In this document: positions 17,973 to 28,204 of the stretch, piece after piece
Layout: each line of letters opens with the position of its first letter
Numbering within the stretch: position 1 is the stretch's first letter
DNA from: Komagataeibacter sp. FNDCR2
GTDB lineage: Bacteria > Pseudomonadota > Alphaproteobacteria > Acetobacterales > Acetobacteraceae
DNA: 64,000 nucleotides
Assembly: GCF_021295395.1 (NCBI RefSeq)
Contig: NZ_JAIWOU010000001.1
Span: 809,001 to 873,000 of the forward strand
Reading direction: 5' to 3'
The notes under the pieces: model-generated
Told to the model about the DNA's origin: nothing
Databases searched by the model: none
The model's input: only the letters and a program-made list of their open reading frames with translations
Translations under genes and position numbers: made by a program

Positions 17973-19507
17973 GTCGCCTCCGGTTCAACATAACGGGGGA
18001 AGACGCCCTGCGGGGCGGGCAGCACGCGGCCCGCCGGCAGGGGCGTGTCGAGGGCGGCGAGATCACGCTCATCGCTTTCCACGCCAAGCTGGGTCAGCAT
18101 CCGGTCCATGCTGCCGGGCATGTAGGGCTGGAGCACGGTCGCGATGATGCGCAGGGCGTCGGCCAGCACGCGCAGCACGTCGCTCATGCGCGCGCTATCG
18201 GTCTTCTTCAGCTTCCACGGGGCCTGATGGTCGATATAAGCGTTGCACGCACGGATCACCTTCCACACTTCCTCCAGCGCGTCGGTCAGGGCCTGGCGGT
18301 CGATCTGCTCGTGCATGATCCCGGGCAGCAGGCTGGCCGGGGCCAGCAGGGCGGTGTCCTCCGCCGTGTGGGCGCCCTGCGCGGGCAGCACGCTGTCGCA
18401 GTTGCGCGCGATCTGCGACAGCGTGCGCTGGGCCAGATTGCCCAGGTCGTTCGCCAGTTCGACATTCATGCGCGAGACGATGGCCCGGCGGCTGAGGTCG
18501 CTGTCACCGCCAAAGGGCATTTCACGCATCAGGAAAAACCGGATCGGGTCCAGGCCGAAGGTATCCACAAGGTCACGCGGGTCCACCACATTGCCCAGCG
18601 ACTTGCTCATCTTCTGGCCTTCGATGGTCCACCACCCGTGCGAAAACACGCGCTCGGGCAGTTCAAGCCCCGCCCCCATCAGCAGCGCGGGCCAGTAGAT
18701 GGCATGGAAGCGCAGGATGTCCTTGCCGACCAGATGCAGGCTGGCGGGCCAGAAATCCCACCGCGCCGCCTTTTCATCCGGGTAGCCCACGGCAGAGAGG
18801 TAATTGGCCAGCGCATCAACCCAGACATACATCACATGCTTCGGGTCGCCCGGCACGGGAATGCCCCAGTTGAAGCTGGTGCGGCTGATGGACAGATCCC
18901 GCAGCCCCTGCCGCACGAAGCTTGCGACCTCGTTACGGCGGCTGGCGGGTTCGATAAAGCCGGGGCGGGTCTCATACAGTTCCAGCAGCCTGTCGCCAAA
19001 GGCGGAGAGACGGAAGAAATAGGACGGCTCCTTCACCCATTCCACGGCCGCCCCCGTGGGGGCCACCTTCTTGCCATCGGAGCCGGTGACCAGTTCATCC
19101 TCACCGTAGAAACATTCATCGCGCAGCGCGTACCAGCCTTCGTACGCGCCAAGGTAGATATGGCCGTTTTCCTCCAGCTTCTTCCACAGGGCGGATGCGC
19201 CCGCCGCGTGGCGGGGTTCGGTCGTGCGGATGAAATCATCGTACGAAACGGCCATCTTGTCGTACATGTCGCGAAAATCGGCGGCCACCCGGTCGGCAAA
19301 GGCGATGGGCTCCATGCCCGCCGCCTGGGCGGCCTGTTCCACCTTCTGGCCGTGTTCGTCCGTGCCAGTCAGGAAAAAGACATCGAACCCCGCCAGCCGC
19401 TTGAAGCGCGCAATCACGTCGGCTGCGACGGACGTATAGGCGTGGCCGATATGTGGCGCCCCGTTCACGTAATAGATTGGTGTGGTGACGTAGTAGCGCC
19501 GTGTCAT
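17969..19507 (-). CDS. metG: Methionyl-tRNA synthetase
   Basis: Class I aminoacyl-tRNA synthetase of 512 residues. The HIGH motif is at residues 19-22 (GAPHIGH) and KMSKS at 299-303; TGTDEHGQK is also diagnostic. The C-terminal tRNA-binding OB-fold found in the longer E. coli enzyme is missing, and the connective-peptide region (about 130-160) lacks the zinc-knuckle cysteines, so this is the short zinc-free form. ATGA overlaps join it to holB upstream and tatD downstream. Confidence 0.96.
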   Translation of the reverse strand: MTRRYYVTTPIYYVNGAPHIGHAYTSVAADVIARFKRLAGFDVFFLTGTDEHGQKVEQAAQAAGMEPIAFADRVAADFRDMYDKMAVSYDDFIRTTEPRHAAGASALWKKLEENGHIYLGAYEGWYALRDECFYGEDELVTGSDGKKVAPTGAAVEWVKEPSYFFRLSAFGDRLLELYETRPGFIEPASRRNEVASFVRQGLRDLSISRTSFNWGIPVPGDPKHVMYVWVDALANYLSAVGYPDEKAARWDFWPASLHLVGKDILRFHAIYWPALLMGAGLELPERVFSHGWWTIEGQKMSKSLGNVVDPRDLVDTFGLDPIRFFLMREMPFGGDSDLSRRAIVSRMNVELANDLGNLAQRTLSQIARNCDSVLPAQGAHTAEDTALLAPASLLPGIMHEQIDRQALTDALEEVWKVIRACNAYIDHQAPWKLKKTDSARMSDVLRVLADALRIIATVLQPYMPGSMDRMLTQLGVESDERDLAALDTPLPAGRVLPAPQGVFPRYVEPEAT

Positions 19508-20466
19508 GTTTCACTCACCCGCGCAAGCGCCGTTAAAACCGCCTGCTGCCTGTCCAGATTGAATTGTTCGGTTTCCGCGCGCAGCCGTACCATGTCCTGC
19601 CACAGCAGGGCCAGGCGGGCCGGGCGGAGATCACTCCCACGCGTCCGGGCCGCGTCGCGGGCCAGGTTACGTGTTTTTTCAGATATGGCATTACACAGCA
19701 GATCGAAAAAGACGGAAAAACCATTTTCCCGTTTCGTGACCTGCTCGGCAATGTCGTAGCCCGCGCCCGCATCCGCCTCGCCATTCATGACCTGGGCCAC
19801 AAGGCGCGCGACCCCGGCCCCGTCACCATCAAGCAGCTCCAGCGCCTTGCCCGGCGCGCCACGGGCCAGCGGCAGGATGCTGTCCAGCCCCTGCGCATCC
19901 GGCGGCTGCGGCATGCGCGAGAGCATGGCGCGCATGGCCGTATCGTCCAGCGCGCCCAGCCCCAGCACCCGGCAGCGGCTGCGGATGGTGGGCAGCAGGC
20001 GCCCCGGTACGGAGGTGGTCAGGATCAGGATGGCGCGTTCGGGTGGTTCCTCAAGGATTTTGAGGATGGCGTTGGCCGCCGTGCGGTTCATGTATTCCGC
20101 GCCATCCACGATCACCACGCGCCAGCCGCCCTCGGCCGCCGTGCGGCGCAGGAAGGCGGAAATGGGGCGTATGTCGTCCCCCACGATCTCGCGCCGCAGG
20201 CGGTGGCGTTTTTCATCCACCCCACGCGCGATCACAAGCAGATCGGCATGCGTGCCCGCGCTGACCCGGCGGCCAACGGGGCTGTCATGGTCTTCCGCGC
20301 CCAGCAGCACGCGCGCCATCATGAAGGCCATGCTGGCCTTGCCAATCCCTTCCGGCCCCGTCAGCAGCCAGGCATGGTGCAGCCTGCCGGTGCGGATGAC
20401 GGACAGGAATTCCCGCCACGCCACGTCATGGCCAGACAGGTGGCGGCAGGTGCGCGGATCAGGCAT
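19504..20466 (-). CDS. holB: DNA polymerase III subunit delta'
   Basis: Clamp-loader subunit of 320 residues. It has an AAA+ fold with a P-loop-like GPEGIGKAS (about 37-45), the sensor/SRC motif TIRSRCRVL, and the central EYMNRTAANAILKILEEPPE segment characteristic of delta'. It starts with an 8-base overlap inside tmk and overlaps metG by 4 bases, an arrangement (tmk-holB-metG) common in alphaproteobacteria. Works with delta, gamma/tau to load the sliding clamp. Confidence 0.93.
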   Translation of the reverse strand: MPDPRTCRHLSGHDVAWREFLSVIRTGRLHHAWLLTGPEGIGKASMAFMMARVLLGAEDHDSPVGRRVSAGTHADLLVIARGVDEKRHRLRREIVGDDIRPISAFLRRTAAEGGWRVVIVDGAEYMNRTAANAILKILEEPPERAILILTTSVPGRLLPTIRSRCRVLGLGALDDTAMRAMLSRMPQPPDAQGLDSILPLARGAPGKALELLDGDGAGVARLVAQVMNGEADAGAGYDIAEQVTKRENGFSVFFDLLCNAISEKTRNLARDAARTRGSDLRPARLALLWQDMVRLRAETEQFNLDRQQAVLTALARVSET

Positions 20467-21112
20467 CAGCCCCCCTGCCCGCCATGGTCAGGTACGGAGC
20501 CAGCGCCGTGCGGATGGCCTGCTGCACGCTGTCCATCGGGCCGCTGGCATCCACGCGGTGGCAGCGGGCGGCGTCGCGGCGGGCGATGATATCAAACCCT
20601 TCGGCCACGCGGGCGTGGAAGGCCGGGTCCAGCGCCTCGTACCTGTCGGTGCGGGCACTGGCGCGCTGGTCCATGCGGGCCTGCGCGATAGCGGGGGGCA
20701 CCTGCAGCACGAAGGTCAGGTCCGGTGCCACCGGGATCAGCGCGCGCAGGCGCTCGATCATGTCCAGCAGCGCCCAGTCCCCATGGCTCAGCCCATAACC
20801 CTGATAGGCTTCGGTCGAATCGATGAAGCGGTCACAGATCACGATTCGGCCCTGCGTGCGCGCGGGCAGGATACGCCGCTCCACATGGTCCGCGCGCGCG
20901 GCGAAATGCGCCAGCACCTCCGCCCGGGCCGACAGGTCATGACCGCCGAACAGCAGGAAATCCCGTAGCGCCTCGGCCCCCGGCGTACCGCCGGGTTCAC
21001 GCGTCAGGTCCACGTCATGGCCCTGCGCGGCCAGGAACTGCGCCAGCAGGCGGGCCTGCGTGGACTTGCCCGCTCCCTCGCCCCCTTCAAACGTAATGAA
21101 CAGGCCGGCCAT
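20459..21112 (-). CDS. tmk: Thymidylate kinase
   Basis: Phosphorylates dTMP to dTDP. The 217-residue protein begins MAGLFITFEGGEGAGKSTQ, with the P-loop at about residues 9-18. The dTMP-binding DR motif lies in VICDRFIDSTEAYQGYG, and a flexible LID region RMDQRASARTDRYE follows. The start is 3 bases after the dacC stop codon. Sits in the dacC-tmk-holB-metG-tatD run. Confidence 0.95.
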   Translation of the reverse strand: MAGLFITFEGGEGAGKSTQARLLAQFLAAQGHDVDLTREPGGTPGAEALRDFLLFGGHDLSARAEVLAHFAARADHVERRILPARTQGRIVICDRFIDSTEAYQGYGLSHGDWALLDMIERLRALIPVAPDLTFVLQVPPAIAQARMDQRASARTDRYEALDPAFHARVAEGFDIIARRDAARCHRVDASGPMDSVQQAIRTALAPYLTMAGRGADA

Positions 21113-21115
21113 GGC

Positions 21116-22339
21116 CTATCCGTGCCCCAGCTTCTGGCCCAGAACCGCCACCGCCCGGCCCATGACCCCAAGCCGGGACACGCTTGCGCCCGCCACGAGG
21201 GGAATGCGGATTTCAGCCAGTCCCGTATTGGAAATGACCACCTCCCCCAACTGCTGGCCCAGGGCCACGGGGGCGGGAACGGGACTGTCATACGCCATGC
21301 TTACGTGCACCCGGTTCTGCCAGCCATGCGGCAGGGTAAGGGTCACGTCACGGGTCGCCACCAGCGGCACGCTATGGGCCTGCCCCAGCCATACGGGCGC
21401 GTTGTCCATGACCGTACCCTTGTGGATGAGGGTCGCATTCTCGAAATTGACGAACGACCACTCGAACAGCCTTTCCCCCTCATTCGCGCGGACATTGCTG
21501 CTGGGCAGGCCGTTCAGCGCCATGACCACGCGGTTGCCACCGCGCTCGGCGCTGGCGCACAGGCCGAAGCCGCCCGCATCCGTGTGGCCGGTCTTGAGGC
21601 CGTCGGCAATGCCCTTCACCACCAGCGCATTGCGGTTTTCCTGAGATATCTTGTTGAACGTAAAACTCTTTTCCGAGAAGAAATGATAATATTCCGGGAA
21701 GTCATGGATCAGGTGCATGGCGATCGTCGCCACATCCCGCGCGGACATGTAATGCCCGTCCATCGGCCAGCCCGTAACATTCATGAAATGGCTGTTGGTC
21801 ATGCCCATCTGGGCGGCCTGCGTGTTCATGAGGGTGACGAACTGGTCCTCGGACCCCGCCACCCCTTCCGCCAGCACGATGCACGCATCATTGCCCGACT
21901 GGATCACCATGCCCTGGATCAGTTCGGCCACGCTGACGGAACCATGCACCGGCACGAACATTTTCGACCCCTGCATCCGCCATGCCTTTTCACTGACGGG
22001 CAGCGTCTGCTCCAGCGTCAGCCTGCCCGCGCGCAGCATGCCGAACACGACATAGGCCGTCATCATCTTGGTCAGCGAGGATGGCGGCATCCGCTCATCC
22101 GCCGCTTTTTCCAGTATCACCTCGCCCGTGGTGTAATCGATGATGCAGGCCCAGCGCGCGACCGTGTCGATCGGGCCGATCAGGCTGTTCGCCGGGGTGG
22201 CGGCGACGGGCGGCGGCGCGCCCGCATCCGCATCGGCCGCCGGGGCGGGATGGCGACGGCGCGCGGCGGGGGCCGCCAGCGCCGTGGCGGATACAAGAAA
22301 GCTGGTGGCCCCAGCCAGAAGGAAACGTCGGGTGTACAT
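21116..22339 (-). CDS. D-alanyl-D-alanine carboxypeptidase (PBP5/6-type)
   Basis: Low-molecular-mass penicillin-binding protein that trims the terminal D-Ala of peptidoglycan pentapeptides. Active-site motifs: SSLTK (Ser88, Lys91), SGN in VIQSGNDACIV, and KTG in GLKTGHTDAGG. A signal peptide with paired arginines (MYTRRFLLAGATSFLVSATALA) suggests export, possibly by Tat. A Pro/Ala-rich linker (about 25-50) precedes the catalytic domain. A C-terminal beta-rich domain follows, but no clear amphipathic membrane anchor is seen. First gene of the dacC-to-MBL run, 60 bases below the lytic transglycosylase gene. Confidence 0.92.
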   Translation of the reverse strand: MYTRRFLLAGATSFLVSATALAAPAARRRHPAPAADADAGAPPPVAATPANSLIGPIDTVARWACIIDYTTGEVILEKAADERMPPSSLTKMMTAYVVFGMLRAGRLTLEQTLPVSEKAWRMQGSKMFVPVHGSVSVAELIQGMVIQSGNDACIVLAEGVAGSEDQFVTLMNTQAAQMGMTNSHFMNVTGWPMDGHYMSARDVATIAMHLIHDFPEYYHFFSEKSFTFNKISQENRNALVVKGIADGLKTGHTDAGGFGLCASAERGGNRVVMALNGLPSSNVRANEGERLFEWSFVNFENATLIHKGTVMDNAPVWLGQAHSVPLVATRDVTLTLPHGWQNRVHVSMAYDSPVPAPVALGQQLGEVVISNTGLAEIRIPLVAGASVSRLGVMGRAVAVLGQKLGHG

Positions 22340-22399
22340 TGTATCCTTGGTCCGGTAGTTACCGGCCGGGCGCGTGCCACGGGCCGGGTGACGGGGCCG

Positions 22400-23401
22400 T
22401 CACGCGATTTCGTTTCCCAGCAGGCCGACGGCCAGCGCATAGAAATCAGAGGGATTGTAGCGGCGGATCGCGGCAAAATTGCGATAGACCATGAAGGATT
22501 CCCCCCCCGGCCCATCCGGCCGCAGCACCGCGCCGGTCATGTCGGGCCGGGCGAACGGCGCGCCGCCCACCTGCTGCACGCCCATCTTCATCCACGCCCC
22601 CAGCGTACGGGTGCGGGCATGCCCCAGTTCGGATTGCGCCACGCTGTCCGGCACGCTGACCTGCTGGCCCCAGCTTTCGCCCCCCACCCAGCCCGAACCG
22701 GCCAGATAGGCGGCAATGGAGCCGAATATGTCGGGTATGGAATGCCAGATGTCGCGCCGTCCGTCGCCATCGATATCCACGGCGTATTTCAGGTAGGCGC
22801 TGGGCATGAACTGCGGCTGCCCCATGGCCCCGGCGTAGCTGCCGGTCATGCTTTCGGGGGAAATGTCGCCCGCGTTGAGGATGGCCAGCGCATGGAACAG
22901 TTCGCCCCGGAAGAACCTGGCCCGCCGCCCCTCATAGGCAAGGGTGCACAGCGCATCGACCACGCCGAAATTGCCGGTCAGCGTGCCATAGGCCGATTCC
23001 AGCCCCCATATGCCCATGACCGCGCCGGGAGAGACATCATAACGGGTCAGGACCTGCTGCTCCAGCACCGCGCGCTGGCGGGCGAAGGCGGCGCGCCCGT
23101 CATCCACCTTGCGCTGCGTCAGCACGCGCGCGCGGTACTGCGCCCATGTCAGGTGGAATTCCGGCTGGTTGCGGTCACGCTCGATCACCTTCTGGTTCGG
23201 CGCGGACAGCGCCAGCGCGCGCGTGACCCCGTCCGCCGTCAGGCCCTGCCGAATCGCCTCGCGCCGGACATTGGCGACAAAACCGGCGTAATCCCCGGCC
23301 GCATCCTGACCCCGCGCCGCAGGCGCGGGCAGCAGCCACGACGCGCCCGCCCCCGCAAAGGCGGTGGCGGCGGAGTGAAGGAGACGGCGACGGTCGAGCA
23401 T
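22400..23401 (-). CDS. MltB-like lytic murein transglycosylase (GH103)
   Basis: Cleaves the glycan strands of peptidoglycan to 1,6-anhydro products. The 333-residue protein starts MLDRRRLLHSAATAFAGAG, a Tat-like signal peptide. The catalytic Glu lies in MGIWGLESAYGTLTGNF; further family marks are YAGAMGQPQFMPSAYLKYAVD and DGDGRRDIWHSIPDIFGSIA. A TTG-initiated frame opens 12 codons earlier (23437), but the ATG at 23401 gives the cleaner signal sequence. It sits upstream of dacC, so peptidoglycan cleavage and trimming genes are side by side. Confidence 0.9.
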   Translation of the reverse strand: MLDRRRLLHSAATAFAGAGASWLLPAPAARGQDAAGDYAGFVANVRREAIRQGLTADGVTRALALSAPNQKVIERDRNQPEFHLTWAQYRARVLTQRKVDDGRAAFARQRAVLEQQVLTRYDVSPGAVMGIWGLESAYGTLTGNFGVVDALCTLAYEGRRARFFRGELFHALAILNAGDISPESMTGSYAGAMGQPQFMPSAYLKYAVDIDGDGRRDIWHSIPDIFGSIAAYLAGSGWVGGESWGQQVSVPDSVAQSELGHARTRTLGAWMKMGVQQVGGAPFARPDMTGAVLRPDGPGGESFMVYRNFAAIRRYNPSDFYALAVGLLGNEIA

Positions 23402-23659
23402 ATCCGATGCTGTGCCACGCCCTCCCGGTTCTTTCAATCACTGATCAGCGCATCCGGACGGACATGATACAATACGCGACATAATTTCCCGTTTGTGGCC
23501 ATGGGCGAAGCATGTCACAAGGACGCCACCAGCAGTTCCCGCATCGGCCCGGTGGCCGATGTTTCCCCTGCCCGCCTGCCGGGCCGACCGAAGGGCTTGT
23601 ACTTATCGTGGTTGCGGTTTTTCCTTCCCATCCCCAGCGGATGCGCTGAAACAGTCCGT

Positions 23660-24238
23660 ATGCCCGTATCCCTGACGTCCGCACTGACCGCCGCCGGCGC
23701 CTCCCCCTTCGTGCAGGCCGTCGCGATCATCGTCGGCACCTTCATCCTGGAAGATGCCGCGACCATCATGACCGCCATGCAGGTGCGCACCGGCCATGTT
23801 GATATCATGGTCGCGCTGGTCGCGCTCTATATCGGCATCATCGTGGGGGACATGGGGCTGTACGGCATGGGCCGGCTGGGCGCGCTGTGGCCGCCCGCGC
23901 GGCGGTGGATCACCCTGCCCGGCGGCGCGCGGGAAGGGAAATGGTTCGATCGCAACGTGTTCCGCATCGTGTTCATCAGCCGGTTCGTGCCGGGCGCGCG
24001 CTTGCCGCTTTATACGGCATGTGGTTTCTTCCATGCCCGGTTCGGGCTGTTCTGCATCGCCGCGGTCCTGGCCACGCTGATCTGGACATCCCTGCTGTTT
24101 GTGGCATCCCTACAGGTGGGGCAGTTCCTGATCGACCATCTGGGAACATGGAAATGGGCGGGCATGGCCGGTTTCGTCCTGACCATTTTCCTGATCAGCC
24201 GCATGATCGCCCGTTTGCATGATAATGAGACCCGATGA
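23660..24238 (+). CDS. DedA-family membrane protein
   Basis: About 192 residues, polytopic. The DedA/SNARE-associated core shows FILEDAATIMTAM (the conserved acidic pair region), GIIVGDMGLYGMGRLGA and the FISRFVPGARLPLYTACG stretch with the R-x-x-PG motif. DedA proteins are needed for proton-motive-force homeostasis, and recent work assigns some members polyprenyl-phosphate or phospholipid flipping. The start at 23660 was chosen because upstream codons of the frame (back to 23495) are unlike the family. Its stop overlaps the start of the ATP-grasp gene by 4 bases. Confidence 0.85.
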   Translation: MPVSLTSALTAAGASPFVQAVAIIVGTFILEDAATIMTAMQVRTGHVDIMVALVALYIGIIVGDMGLYGMGRLGALWPPARRWITLPGGAREGKWFDRNVFRIVFISRFVPGARLPLYTACGFFHARFGLFCIAAVLATLIWTSLLFVASLQVGQFLIDHLGTWKWAGMAGFVLTIFLISRMIARLHDNETR

Positions 24239-25329
24239 CCGACATGACCACCGCCGTTGACCGCAGGTCAGACACACGCACCGACACCCCCACGGTCTCG
24301 GCTTTCGAATTCTGGCCGGGCTGGATCTTCTATACCCCCATCGTGCTGTACTGGATCATCCTGGGGCTGCGGTACCGTGATTTCAGCCTGCCCACCGCCG
24401 CCAACCCGCGTATCGAGACCGGGGGACTGTGCGGCGAGAGCAAAAGCTCGATTCTGGACATGGCGGGCGATGTGGCGCGGGAATGGATCGCGCCCTATGC
24501 CGTGATCACCACCGGAAGCGACGACCTGCCGCGCGCCATGGCCGCGATGAAGGAGGCGGGGCTGTCCTTTCCCATCGTGCTCAAGCCCGATATCGGCTGC
24601 AACGGCACGGGCGTGCGCATCATGCGCGATGCCGAAAGCCTGCGCGCGGGGCTGGCCGCCTTTGGCCGCGATGTGGCCGTGATGCTCCAGCACCTGATCC
24701 CCTACGGGCATGAAGTGGGGCTGTTCTACATCCGCCACCCCGATGAGGCGGTGGGCCGCATCACCTCCCTGACCTACAAGGAAGTCCCCTGCCTTACGGG
24801 TGATGGCCATTCCACGGTGGAGGAACTGCTCCATGCCGACAGCCGCACCCGGCTTGTCCCGCACATCTACCTGCCCCGCCTGAAGCCGCGCCTGCATGAG
24901 GTCCCGGCGGCGGGCCAGTCGCTGCCGCTGGTCTTTGCGGGAAATCACTGCAAGGGCTCGATCTTCCATGACCGCGCCATCGACATAACCCCGGCACTTG
25001 AAGCGCGCGTCAACACGATCATGCGCGACATTCCCGATTTTCACTTCGGGCGGATCGACGCCAAGGCCCGCAGCCTCGCCGCCCTGCGCGAAGGCGAGGA
25101 TTTCCAGATTATCGAGATCAACGGCGTCGGCTCCGAGGCCACCCATATATGGGATGCCCGCACCACGCTGCGCGCGGCCTACGCCACGCAGTTCATGCAC
25201 TACCGCGAGACCTTCCGCATCGGGGCGAAAAAGCGGCGTGAAGGCTGGAAAAGCAGTGGGGCCATGGCCATGCTGCGAAGCTGGCTGCGCCAGCGCAGGC
25301 TCATGGCCAGCTACCCGCTGAATGACTGA
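24235..25329 (+). CDS. Membrane-anchored ATP-grasp ligase-like protein
   Basis: 364 residues. One hydrophobic segment near residues 27-45 (WIFYTPIVLYWIILGL) anchors the N-terminus; the rest resembles the carboxylate-amine/D-Ala-D-Ala-ligase ATP-grasp fold: FPIVLKPDIGCNGTGVRI (ATP-binding strand and glycine loop), VMLQHLIPYGHEVGLFYI (central Glu), and the metal-binding FQIIEINGVGSEATH at the end of the domain. The substrate is unknown. The 4-base ATGA overlap with the DedA gene suggests translational coupling and a joint role at the membrane, perhaps modifying a lipid-linked envelope substrate; that is inference. The downstream MlaD gene is convergent. Confidence 0.75.
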   Translation: MTDMTTAVDRRSDTRTDTPTVSAFEFWPGWIFYTPIVLYWIILGLRYRDFSLPTAANPRIETGGLCGESKSSILDMAGDVAREWIAPYAVITTGSDDLPRAMAAMKEAGLSFPIVLKPDIGCNGTGVRIMRDAESLRAGLAAFGRDVAVMLQHLIPYGHEVGLFYIRHPDEAVGRITSLTYKEVPCLTGDGHSTVEELLHADSRTRLVPHIYLPRLKPRLHEVPAAGQSLPLVFAGNHCKGSIFHDRAIDITPALEARVNTIMRDIPDFHFGRIDAKARSLAALREGEDFQIIEINGVGSEATHIWDARTTLRAAYATQFMHYRETFRIGAKKRREGWKSSGAMAMLRSWLRQRRLMASYPLND

Positions 25330-25353
25330 GCGGACCGCCGCCCCACGGACAGC

Positions 25354-25812
25354 TCAGTTCGTGGGCAGGCCGCCATTGCCAAAGATATAGTTACTGATCT
25401 GCTGCTCAAGGCTGAGCGGTTCGCGCGTGTTGGTCACAACCGCGCCGGGGCCGAGCATGGCGGTGGCCCTGCCCGGCTGCACCAGCAGGGCGGTATCGGC
25501 CGTAAGCGTCGGGCTACCGATTGAAATACTTGTATCTTCAGGCAACGACAATGTACGGTCGAGCGTAAAGCCCACATTGGCCATATAGGTCACGGGGTCG
25601 AGCGTAATGGAGGTAACCCGGCCCACAGGCACGCCATCCATGGCGACATCCGCCCCGACATTCAGCCCATTGGCCGAAACGAAACGCGCCACGACAGGAT
25701 AGCGGTCGTGACCGCCGCCGGTTTGCGATGCGCGGGCGTAAATACAGAACCCACCCGCAACCAGAAGGACAAGTCCGCTGGATATGATCGCGCCGCTTCT
25801 TTCCCTTGCCAT
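25354..25812 (-). CDS. MlaD-type lipid-binding periplasmic protein
   Basis: 152 residues with one N-terminal membrane helix (ISSGLVLLVAGGFCIYARA) and a single MCE domain: VVARFVSANGLNVGADVAMDGVPVGRVTSI is the typical MCE strand pattern, followed by the SIGSPTLTADTALLVQPG segment. MlaD forms a hexameric ring that shuttles phospholipids between membranes with MlaFEB. The partners MlaE, MlaF and MlaC are not next to it here, so it stands alone. The start at 25812 (MARERSG) has AGGGAG 7 bases upstream; longer in-frame starts at 25899 and 25845 are less likely. Confidence 0.82.
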   Translation of the reverse strand: MARERSGAIISSGLVLLVAGGFCIYARASQTGGGHDRYPVVARFVSANGLNVGADVAMDGVPVGRVTSITLDPVTYMANVGFTLDRTLSLPEDTSISIGSPTLTADTALLVQPGRATAMLGPGAVVTNTREPLSLEQQISNYIFGNGGLPTN

Positions 25813-25935
25813 ACTGGCTCCCTGCCCGATACGGCTCCATACCATCCCGAAATCCGCCACAATGCGGAACAGGGTGGATCCGGCGCTATGCCGTGCCATA
25901 TCCTTTCATCCTACTGCGTCATGGACAGGCGGACA

Positions 25936-26775
25936 ATGACACTCCTTCAGGCTATCCTCATCGCCATCATTCAGGGCGCCACCGAACAGTTTCCCATAAG
26001 CAGCCTTGGCCACGCGGCCATCGTGCCCGCCATCCTGCACTGGTCCGTGGACCTGCATGGGGAAATGTTCCTGCCCCTGCTGGTCATGCTGCATCTGGGC
26101 ACATGCGTGGCCCTGCTCATTTTTTTCTGGCGTGACTGGGTGGCGCTGTTCACCGGCGCCACGGGACGCTACGGCGCCACCTGCCAGATGGACAGCATCC
26201 GTATCCTCGCGCTGCTGATCGTGGCGACCATTCCGGCGGTGCTGGTTGGCGGACTATTCGAACACGCCATCCGCAACCTGTTCGGCACGGCCCGTTATGC
26301 CGCGGTCTTTCTGGCGCTGAACGGGGTCATGCTGCTGGTTGTGGACCAGATGCGCGACAGGCTGCTGCATGAAAGCGACCGTCCCCTCGCCTCGCTGGGC
26401 TTCGGGGAGGCGCTGGTGATCGGGCTGTTCCAGTGCCTGGCCTTCTTTCCCGGCCTGTCACGTTCGGGCGCGTGCATTGCCGGGGGCCTGCTGCACGGCC
26501 TGTCGCATGAAAATTCGGCACGGTTCGCCTTTCTCATGGCGCAGCCGGTCATTCTGGCGGCCACGGCGCTGGAAGCCCTCAAGCTGCGGCATGCCCCGCC
26601 ACTTCCGGGGCAGATGCACGTCGCGGTCATCGCCGCTGTGGTGGCGGCCGTTGTGGCGCTGGTGTGCACCGGCCTGCTCATGCGCTATTTCCACGACCAT
26701 GAAGACTGGGCGCTACGGCCATTCGGCTGGTACTGCATCGGCGCCGGAAGCCTTGCGTTCCTGTACCTGGCCTGA
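25936..26775 (+). CDS. uppP: Undecaprenyl-diphosphate phosphatase
   Basis: Polytopic inner-membrane enzyme (279 residues) that dephosphorylates undecaprenyl diphosphate to regenerate the lipid carrier for cell-wall synthesis. The two signature regions are GATEQFPISSLGH (variant of EGLTEFLPVSSTGH, with the catalytic Glu and the Ser/His) and FPGLSRSGACIAGG (PGxSRSxxT-like). The start MTLLQAIL at 25936 has AGGCGG upstream; an ATG at 25921 is a possible alternative. The motif is somewhat degenerate (GATEQF instead of EGLTEF), so a UppP paralogue is possible. Confidence 0.85.
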   Translation: MTLLQAILIAIIQGATEQFPISSLGHAAIVPAILHWSVDLHGEMFLPLLVMLHLGTCVALLIFFWRDWVALFTGATGRYGATCQMDSIRILALLIVATIPAVLVGGLFEHAIRNLFGTARYAAVFLALNGVMLLVVDQMRDRLLHESDRPLASLGFGEALVIGLFQCLAFFPGLSRSGACIAGGLLHGLSHENSARFAFLMAQPVILAATALEALKLRHAPPLPGQMHVAVIAAVVAAVVALVCTGLLMRYFHDHEDWALRPFGWYCIGAGSLAFLYLA

Positions 26776-26809
26776 ATTACCTGACCTGACACCGGCGGGC
26801 CATCAGGGG

Positions 26810-27997
26810 TCAGCCATGGCCCTGCCCGCCATCGGTGGCGGCCATGCCGCCCCCGCCCCCACCTGTTCGCGGCCCCGTATAGGCCCCCGGCGGTGGCCGC
26901 ATGACGGGTGGCGACAGCATGCCCGGATCCCCCATCACATCCAGCCCGGACAGGGAGCCGACATGGGTCAGCCGGTCGCGCGGCAGGGCTTCGGGGCATT
27001 CATCGCGCAGGAAGGCGATGATCTGTTCACGTATCTCGCAGCGCAGATCCCAGCTCTGCATGGCCGAGCGTGCGCTTGCGATGACGCGGATGGTCATGAC
27101 ATGGGCATTGCAGTCGGCCACCTGCACGGCGAATTCCTTGCCGTCCCATAACGGCGCGGAATGCACGATCTCGCGCAGCCGTTCGCGGATCCGGTCCATG
27201 GGGGCCTGAAAATCCACATGAATGAAGACCACCCCGATCAGGGCGGCGGAATTATGCGTCCAGTTCTGGAACGGATTTTCCAGAAAATAGGAAATGGGCA
27301 CGATATGCCGCCGCCAGTCCCACACCCGCAGCACGACGTAGGTGGAGGTGATTTCCTCCACCCAGGCCCAGTCACCATTGATGATGATCAGGTCTTCCAT
27401 GCGGATCGGCTGCGTCATCGCGATCTGCACGCCCGCGAACAGGTTGGTCAGCAGCGGACGCGCCGCCAGACCGACAACCAGTGACGCCGCACCGGCGGAA
27501 GCGAACAGACTGAGCCCATACTGCCGCACGGGTTCGAATGTCATGAGTGAGGCCCCCACCGTGACCAACCCGATCAGCAGGTCCGTCGTGCGGCGCAGCA
27601 CGCGCACCTGCGTCATATGCGTGCGCAGCAGGATATCGTCCTTGTCATCCTTGCCATTGATCCGGTTGAGGTAGGCGTCGGACAGGATGCGCGTGGCGAC
27701 CAGCGCCGCATAACCCAGCATAAGAACGAACAGCACCACCACCGCATGGGTCGCGTCCTGCATGATGTCGCCCGGCAGGCCCGAGACCGGAAGGGCGGTA
27801 CCCACGAACACGAGCACGAGCATGATGCGCGCCGGGCGCTGCATGGCCAGGGTGAACGAACGCACGAAGGCGCCGCGCCGGCTGCCCGGGATGCGAAGGA
27901 TCAGTTTGGTGATGAACCGGCTGCACATTTCCGCCACCAGCCCCGCCACACAGAGCATGAGGACCGAGGACAGCAGGCCGGGTAACCAGCCGAACAT
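26810..27997 (-). CDS. MscS-family mechanosensitive ion channel
   Basis: About 395 residues: four hydrophobic segments in the first 220 residues, then the MscS pore-lining and beta domain with GASLMTFEP, FASAGAASLVVGLAARPLLTNLFAG (TM3, Ala/Gly-rich), RMEDLIII, and VEEITSTYVVLRVWDWRRHIVPISYFL. The channel releases solutes on osmotic downshift. A glycine/proline-rich tail of about 45 residues ends the protein. The start is uncertain: ATG 27997 (MFGWLPG) gives a clean N-terminal helix; GTG 28039 would add 14 residues, and the frame is open up to 28204. Confidence 0.85.
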   Translation of the reverse strand: MFGWLPGLLSSVLMLCVAGLVAEMCSRFITKLILRIPGSRRGAFVRSFTLAMQRPARIMLVLVFVGTALPVSGLPGDIMQDATHAVVVLFVLMLGYAALVATRILSDAYLNRINGKDDKDDILLRTHMTQVRVLRRTTDLLIGLVTVGASLMTFEPVRQYGLSLFASAGAASLVVGLAARPLLTNLFAGVQIAMTQPIRMEDLIIINGDWAWVEEITSTYVVLRVWDWRRHIVPISYFLENPFQNWTHNSAALIGVVFIHVDFQAPMDRIRERLREIVHSAPLWDGKEFAVQVADCNAHVMTIRVIASARSAMQSWDLRCEIREQIIAFLRDECPEALPRDRLTHVGSLSGLDVMGDPGMLSPPVMRPPPGAYTGPRTGGGGGGMAATDGGQGHG

Positions 27998-28204
27998 ATG
28001 CCGAAGGGTAGTCAAAAAGGTAAGGAATTCAGTTTTCACAAAGGATGCGCAGCCTTTTCCGGTTGTTTGCGGATTGTGTGGTGAGACCCCAGTAGTACCC
28101 CCTATCGGGAGGAAATGACAAATCCGGCACCTTTGCCGGACCTTTTGCGCCACATCCCCAAAACACGGGTTGACTTCCCGCCAGAGCACGGGTATCTCGC
28201 ACAC

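Follow-up and report, generated by a model that had tools for sequence, protein, structure and literature searches.

A coupled DedA and ATP-grasp gene pair proposed to act in aminolipid metabolism

In the 64,000-nucleotide stretch of the Komagataeibacter sp. FNDCR2 genome analyzed here (contig NZ_JAIWOU010000001.1, positions 809,001 to 873,000; hereafter the window), a gene for a DedA-family membrane protein overlaps a downstream gene for an ATP-grasp protein. The two genes are coupled or fused in alpha- and gammaproteobacteria, the ATP-grasp protein has the fold and intact catalytic residues of its superfamily, and the pair is linked in several genomes to ornithine-lipid acyltransferases. With middling confidence, we propose that the two genes form a ligase–flippase module of aminolipid metabolism, in which the ligase would amidate an aminolipid carboxylate and DedA would move the lipid. 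A further step is taken more tentatively. Such a system, as separate proteins or one polypeptide, could possibly be the first dedicated head-group extender and transporter for aminolipids, and include the missing tauro-ornithine lipid synthase. The features of the pair, with the basis for each in brackets, are as follows.

23660..24238, plus strand: DedA/VTT-domain membrane protein, 192 amino acids (PF09335, residue conservation, AlphaFold)
24235..24238, plus strand: ATGA overlap of the DedA stop and the ligase start, translational coupling (sequence)
24235..25329, plus strand: membrane-anchored ATP-grasp carboxylate-amine ligase (P0002), 364 amino acids (fold and residues)
24307..24378, plus strand: aromatic-rich hydrophobic anchor FEFWPxWxFYxPxVLxWxxLGLRYR, residues 25–48 (alignment, hydropathy, AlphaFold)
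24397..24447, plus strand: AANPxIxxGGLxGESK motif, residues 55–71, with invariant K70, specific to this ligase family (alignment of 75)
24571..24591, plus strand: ATP-binding lysine K117 in PIVLKPD, residues 113–119 (invariant in 75)
25051..25125, plus strand: metal-binding region R273, D275, E294-x-N296, residues 273–297 (invariant in 75; EIN aligns with the EIN of cyanophycin synthetase)

Pairing and fusion of the two genes

An initial annotation of the window had noted the four-nucleotide overlap, and the two genes do share the ATGA at 24235–24238. The DedA reading frame is open as far as a GTG at 23495, and the ATG at 23660 matches the length of relatives. The genome (3.29 Mb) belongs to the Acetobacteraceae, and its ATP-grasp protein is about 90% identical to those of Komagataeibacter species, its closest named relatives. 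Relatives are labeled D-alanine–D-alanine ligase or hypothetical protein, or VTT domain-containing protein if fused.

ATP-grasp matches occur in 37 of 80 Acetobacteraceae genomes, one of them (E 7.6e-4) being short, weak, and not a member. DedA lies directly upstream in 28 of the 30 Acetobacteraceae loci taken from matching genomes. The named loci from a contig scan (n = 80) are Acetobacteraceae in all but one or two cases, and the wider range comes from other genomes and plasmid records. A phylum-wide sample holds true members (E < 1e-100) in 14 of 399 genomes; below them is a sharp gap, and then come cyanophycin synthetases at E 1e-12. Members are present in 31 of 385 genomes of a class sample and in 7 of 369 genomes sampled from the class of genome G236.

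Outside the Acetobacteraceae, 44 loci from alpha- and gammaproteobacteria comprise 29 adjacent pairs, 4 DedA–ATP-grasp fusions, and 11 loci with no DedA in the available sequence. Single-protein fusions are found at L129, L149, L169, and L171, and Azospirillum plasmids likewise carry a fusion. The tree of the ATP-grasp proteins requires at least two fusion events. Across about 140 unfused pairs, many of them from close relatives, the intergenic gap is at most 46 nucleotides; 95 pairs overlap, 76 by exactly four nucleotides. This tight pairing is far beyond chance. Pairwise distances among the DedA proteins track those among the ATP-grasp proteins (Spearman 0.79 over 65 loci; shuffled maximum 0.22), in a comparison that has no control gene for shared ancestry. 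The initial annotation had staked its proposal on conservation beyond close relatives, and the gene neighborhoods bear this out, with the pair spread over alpha- and gammaproteobacteria and fused in some lineages.

Fusions of DedA subfamilies described by Todor et al. 2023 involve rhodanese, PAP2, and pyridine nucleotide-disulphide oxidoreductase; ATP-grasp is not among them. A literature search, with most subscription journals outside its coverage, found no publication on the DedA/ATP-grasp pair. Both protein families are known. Neither the module they form, coupled or fused, nor its association with aminolipid operons seems to have been described before.

In several alphaproteobacterial families (L188, L189, L191–L196, L201), the gene immediately before DedA, in some cases overlapping it, encodes an alpha/beta hydrolase whose nucleophile motif is GHSLG. 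OlsI, a planctomycete ornithine-lipid O-acyltransferase, is also of the alpha/beta hydrolase superfamily (PMC12493201). On a Paracoccus denitrificans plasmid (L033, 5920–8611), pair and hydrolase occur in a rearranged order: the ATP-grasp and VTT genes are on opposite strands, about 1 kb from each other, and an alpha/beta hydrolase gene lies in that gap. Solitary ATP-grasp paralogs, about 40% identical and with no DedA, occur on Komagataeibacter plasmids (plasmid matches H13–H17 and H20). The copy on Komagataeibacter xylinus plasmid pGX5 (L034, 5932–7017), a plasmid typed as conjugative, is close to an arsenic-resistance operon.

The ATP-grasp ligase and its DedA partner

No Pfam or NCBIfam model matches the ligase at or above its cut-off, and Pfam ATP-grasp models match below cut-off only. 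The label of ligase therefore rests on fold and residues. The AlphaFold model (pLDDT 93) was ranked by Foldseek first with cyanophycin synthetase (E 8e-11), then with glutathione synthetase GshF and D-alanine–D-alanine ligase (Ddl). A profile built from 75 ligase relatives matches cyanophycin synthetases at E 1.6e-12. K117, E160, R273, D275, E294, and N296 are invariant in all 75 sequences. The protein has the fold, the ATP lysine, and the Asp, Glu, and Asn metal ligands of the ATP-grasp superfamily. The metal-binding residues that the initial annotation wanted checked on alignment are thus intact, as are those for ATP.

By both profile and fold, the nearest known relative is the ATP-grasp domain of cyanophycin synthetase (CphA1/CphA2), an enzyme with carboxylate-amine ligase chemistry. 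Both contain a GDGxST motif and the EIN segment that binds metal. Identity is only 16–20%, the other CphA domains are absent so that only the ATP-grasp part aligns, and the full-length CphA model scores 20.7 bits on the ligase against a cut-off of 850. Unlike cyanophycin synthetase, the ligase has a membrane helix and the family-specific GESK motif. Ddl also shares the ATP-grasp fold, and annotators name several relatives Ddl. The ligase differs from Ddl in its membrane helix and in the aminolipid-operon setting of its relatives, and it scores far under the cut-offs of the Ddl models (10.6 bits against 243 and 11.7 against 489). On these scores, we rejected a D-Ala-D-Ala ligase identity.

The N-terminal segment that the initial annotation called a transmembrane helix is real as a hydrophobic segment. 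AlphaFold models it as a single helix (residues 29–47) with a nearly invariant proline, P35, and little else precedes the ATP-grasp domain. In 75 of 75 relatives, the first 60 residues contain a 19-residue window with a favorable Wimley-White octanol energy. The anchor is moderately hydrophobic (Kyte-Doolittle 1.39 over 19 residues, under the usual 1.6). In fused proteins, many lysines and arginines can occur in the linker from DedA to the helix (L209), and RYRR or a similar sequence follows the helix. Because of this moderate hydrophobicity, the aromatic residues, P35, the basic linker, and the RYRR, a re-entrant or interfacial position of the anchor is no less likely than a full transmembrane span. 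A re-entrant or interfacial anchor would keep the active site on the cytoplasmic side, the side with ATP.

The DedA protein matches the PF09335 VTT domain at 35.8 bits (cut-off 33.9), and 39 of 41 members of its family match the domain at E ≤ 0.001. Its AlphaFold model has a pLDDT of 90.6. Foldseek returned no match to this model in the Protein Data Bank (PDB) at E ≤ 0.001, and the family profile finds no PDB sequence. E31, D64, R108, P111, and G112 are invariant in an alignment of 41 sequences, and D32 and R114 are nearly so. Among 146 DedA sequences, 140 have both R108 and R114, which we take from the RxxPGxR motif as equivalents of the COG0586 arginines. Members of COG0586 are thought to use conserved arginines for phosphate groups (PMC10127716). 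The VTT domain is common to the DedA/VTT flippases and scramblases of COG0586, COG0398, and COG1238, and the acidic and arginine residues of the window's DedA resemble those of COG0586. E31 and D32 are conserved, whereas position 43, 12 after E31, is not acidic, and COG0586 has D51 twelve after E39; this is a sequence comparison, with no superposition of structures. The window's DedA matches the UptA models weakly (21 bits against 250) and, unlike these flippases and scramblases, is coupled or fused to an ATP-grasp protein. An anionic lipid is a plausible cargo; undecaprenyl phosphate (C55-P) specifically is not supported.

Linkage to ornithine-lipid acyltransferases

An Ols-type acyltransferase (OlsF or OlsB–OlsA) lies within 5.1 kb of the ligase on the same strand in 11 of the 15 non-alphaproteobacterial loci, from seven families. 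By chance, a given locus would show such linkage with a probability of about 0.6%. In L184, L210, L211, and L186, 11–53 nucleotides separate the acyltransferase gene from the ligase or fused gene. Linkage occurs in three separate clades of the ATP-grasp tree and with two pathway types. One of these clades is basal in a midpoint-rooted drawing and one neighbors the Acetobacteraceae branch. The window's protein is therefore bracketed by Ols-linked clades.

The gammaproteobacterial locus L211 (6577–9824) has the gene order DinB, NRDE/TANGO2, ATP-grasp, OlsB, OlsA, as does L212. By NCBIfam, its OlsB is an L-ornithine N-acyltransferase (4e-52) and its OlsA a lyso-ornithine lipid O-acyltransferase (2e-49), both below the equivalog cut-offs. 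The pair-linked OlsF of L184 and L186 matches NCBIfam at about 1e-121 and 405 bits, with PF13444 and PF19576, also below the equivalog cut-off. The ligases of L211 and L212 have no adjoining DedA. Small proteins of DinB-like, NRDE (TANGO2), YHS-domain, and DoxX-like types recur around the ligase in several families (L179–L185, L191, L210–L214).

Co-occurrence was counted with PF13444, the acyltransferase domain of OlsB and OlsF. It is present in 44 of 45 ATP-grasp-positive genomes outside the Acetobacteraceae, the exception being 57% complete. Among ATP-grasp-negative genomes, it is present in 19 of 35 (matches better than 1e-15): 14 of 19 alphaproteobacteria, 2 of 13 other non-alphaproteobacteria, and 3 of 3 from the genus of the Vibrionaceae-like positives. 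Positives and negatives differ (Fisher p 2e-6 overall; 16/16 versus 5/16, p 7e-5, outside the Alphaproteobacteria), with controls that are few and, through shared ancestry, phylogenetically non-independent. All ATP-grasp-positive Acetobacteraceae have the domain, including the window's genome, whose protein (L232) is OlsB-like, 281 amino acids long, and scores 282 bits against a cut-off of 350. One Acetobacteraceae genome (G055, contig C9, 257862–267220) has a second, weaker PF13444 protein of 247 amino acids about 8 kb from the ATP-grasp gene. Linkage and co-occurrence place the non-alphaproteobacterial members in an aminolipid pathway; for the window, the assignment is by homology only.

A proposed aminolipid module and its alternatives

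In the proposed mechanism, the ATP-grasp enzyme would be held at the cytoplasmic face of the inner membrane by its N-terminal hydrophobic helix. Its substrate would be an acyloxyacyl aminolipid from the OlsB/OlsA or OlsF route, whose amino-acid head group has a free alpha-carboxylate that the enzyme would convert to an acyl phosphate with ATP. The activated carboxylate would then react with the amine of a second small molecule, and the head group would thereby be lengthened through an amide bond into a dipeptide-like form. DedA would take either the substrate or the end product across the inner membrane. Amidation of the alpha-carboxylate is the simplest step because products of OlsB and OlsF keep this group free and the enzyme type makes amides. 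Cyanophycin synthetase, too, extends a peptide at an activated carboxylate. The initial annotation had suggested an ATP-dependent amide step on a lipid-linked or envelope substrate with DedA handling the lipid, a suggestion that finds support here and can be sharpened to aminolipids.

Aminolipids with two-residue head groups are known (PMC12493201, PMC10191378): one type has glycine-serine, another ornithine-taurine. The latter lipid is that of Gluconobacter cerinus (PMC4484230, PMC6669457, PMC12493201). In acetic acid bacteria, one candidate product of the module would be this tauro-ornithine lipid ('cerilipin'), ornithine lipid amidated with taurine, which a ligase of this type could make; taurine as the amine is speculative. 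The known producer G. cerinus NBRC 3267 carries the pair (L061), a link between gene and lipid by genome presence only. Transfer of taurine to ornithine lipid is cited to lipid chemistry from 1976, and no gene, ATP-grasp, or DedA is named there (PMC12493201). In the literature searched, no gene was named for the remodeling step of amino-acid-containing membrane lipids.

In many bacteria, aminolipids take the place of phospholipids, and they influence both stress tolerance and recognition by the immune system. The ligase–flippase pair offers a testable gene for head-group extension and inner-membrane crossing of these lipids. If the aminolipid proposal is true, the enzyme covalently joined to a DedA protein would allow the cargo of that DedA protein to be deduced, and D-alanine–D-alanine ligase annotations of such proteins would be corrected.

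Several observations weigh against this proposal. In none of the alphaproteobacterial loci examined, the window among them, does the pair have an Ols gene nearby, and the alphaproteobacterial link consists of homology (34–47% identity) and co-occurrence. Within the Acetobacteraceae, co-occurrence is uninformative because 79 of 80 genomes, nearly all of the negatives included, have PF13444; outside the family, the few and related controls count here as well. Some ATP-grasp relatives have no DedA nearby. Several gammaproteobacterial genomes encode, at a separate site, a canonical OlsF (L249, L250, L251, L253; 866–877 bits in L249 and L250) in addition to the divergent pair-linked one (L181, L185, L186, L184). 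Because of this, the pair-linked OlsF may use another amino acid, and its lipid could be other than ornithine lipid. Finally, cysteine dioxygenase (PF05995), a proxy for taurine supply, is absent from the window's genome and not enriched among positives. Taurine import or another supply route is possible.

The ligase could instead make the first amide, joining a free fatty acid to an amino acid or amine to give an N-acyl amino acid or aminolipid precursor that DedA would move. Precedents are an ATP-grasp enzyme that makes acyl-histidine in Legionella (reviewed in PMC11631085) and the GH3-like OlsH for ornithine lipid (PMC12493201), and an N-terminal anchor would suit a lipid substrate. However, in the informative operons its neighbor is OlsF or OlsB, and these enzymes form that amide already from acylated acyl carrier protein. 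The step would be redundant, since nearly all positive non-Acetobacteraceae genomes keep an OlsB or OlsF homolog. We consider a first-amide role unlikely.

Rather unlikely, too, is modification of another membrane amine or acid (such as phosphatidylethanolamine or a hopanoid) or of a small metabolite, with the gammaproteobacterial Ols linkage as a secondary recruitment. This would fit the alphaproteobacterial loci without Ols neighbors, the alpha/beta hydrolase just upstream in several alphaproteobacterial families, and the unrelated settings of the solitary paralogs. Yet the Ols linkage arose in three clades that bracket the window's protein, and hopanoids are not expected in Vibrionaceae.

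Quite improbable is a module on the C55-P or peptidoglycan pathway, in which DedA would recycle C55-P and the ligase would extend a C55-linked or peptidoglycan precursor by an amino acid: R108 and R114 do match the C55-P-binding pair of COG0586 (PMC10127716) and uppP, dacC, and mltB are near the pair in the window, but DedA is far from the UptA models and is not acidic at position 43, the ligase is far from Ddl, and such neighbors are absent elsewhere. The window's neighbors that we place outside the proposed module include the following.

22400..23437, minus strand: MltB-like lytic transglycosylase (SLT_2)
25354..25899, minus strand: MlaD-domain protein (PF02470)
25942..26775, plus strand: UppP/BacA undecaprenyl-pyrophosphate phosphatase (PF02673)

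The initial annotation had read uppP, mlaD, dacC, and mltB as functional context. They are near the pair in 60–75 of 95 Acetobacteraceae loci, whereas the 42 loci from other families have no uppP, mlaD, dacC, mltB, tmk, or holB near it. Because they are confined to Acetobacteraceae loci, these envelope genes reflect family synteny and not function, and a peptidoglycan or C55-P role drawn from them was rejected. Nor is such a substrate supported by the recurrent partners elsewhere, which are ornithine-lipid acyltransferases, or by the ligase, which in sequence and fold is nearer cyanophycin synthetase than D-Ala-D-Ala ligase. In the window, the synteny block (19504–28204) comprises holB, tmk, dacC, mltB, the DedA/ATP-grasp pair, mlaD, uppP, and an mscS-like gene.
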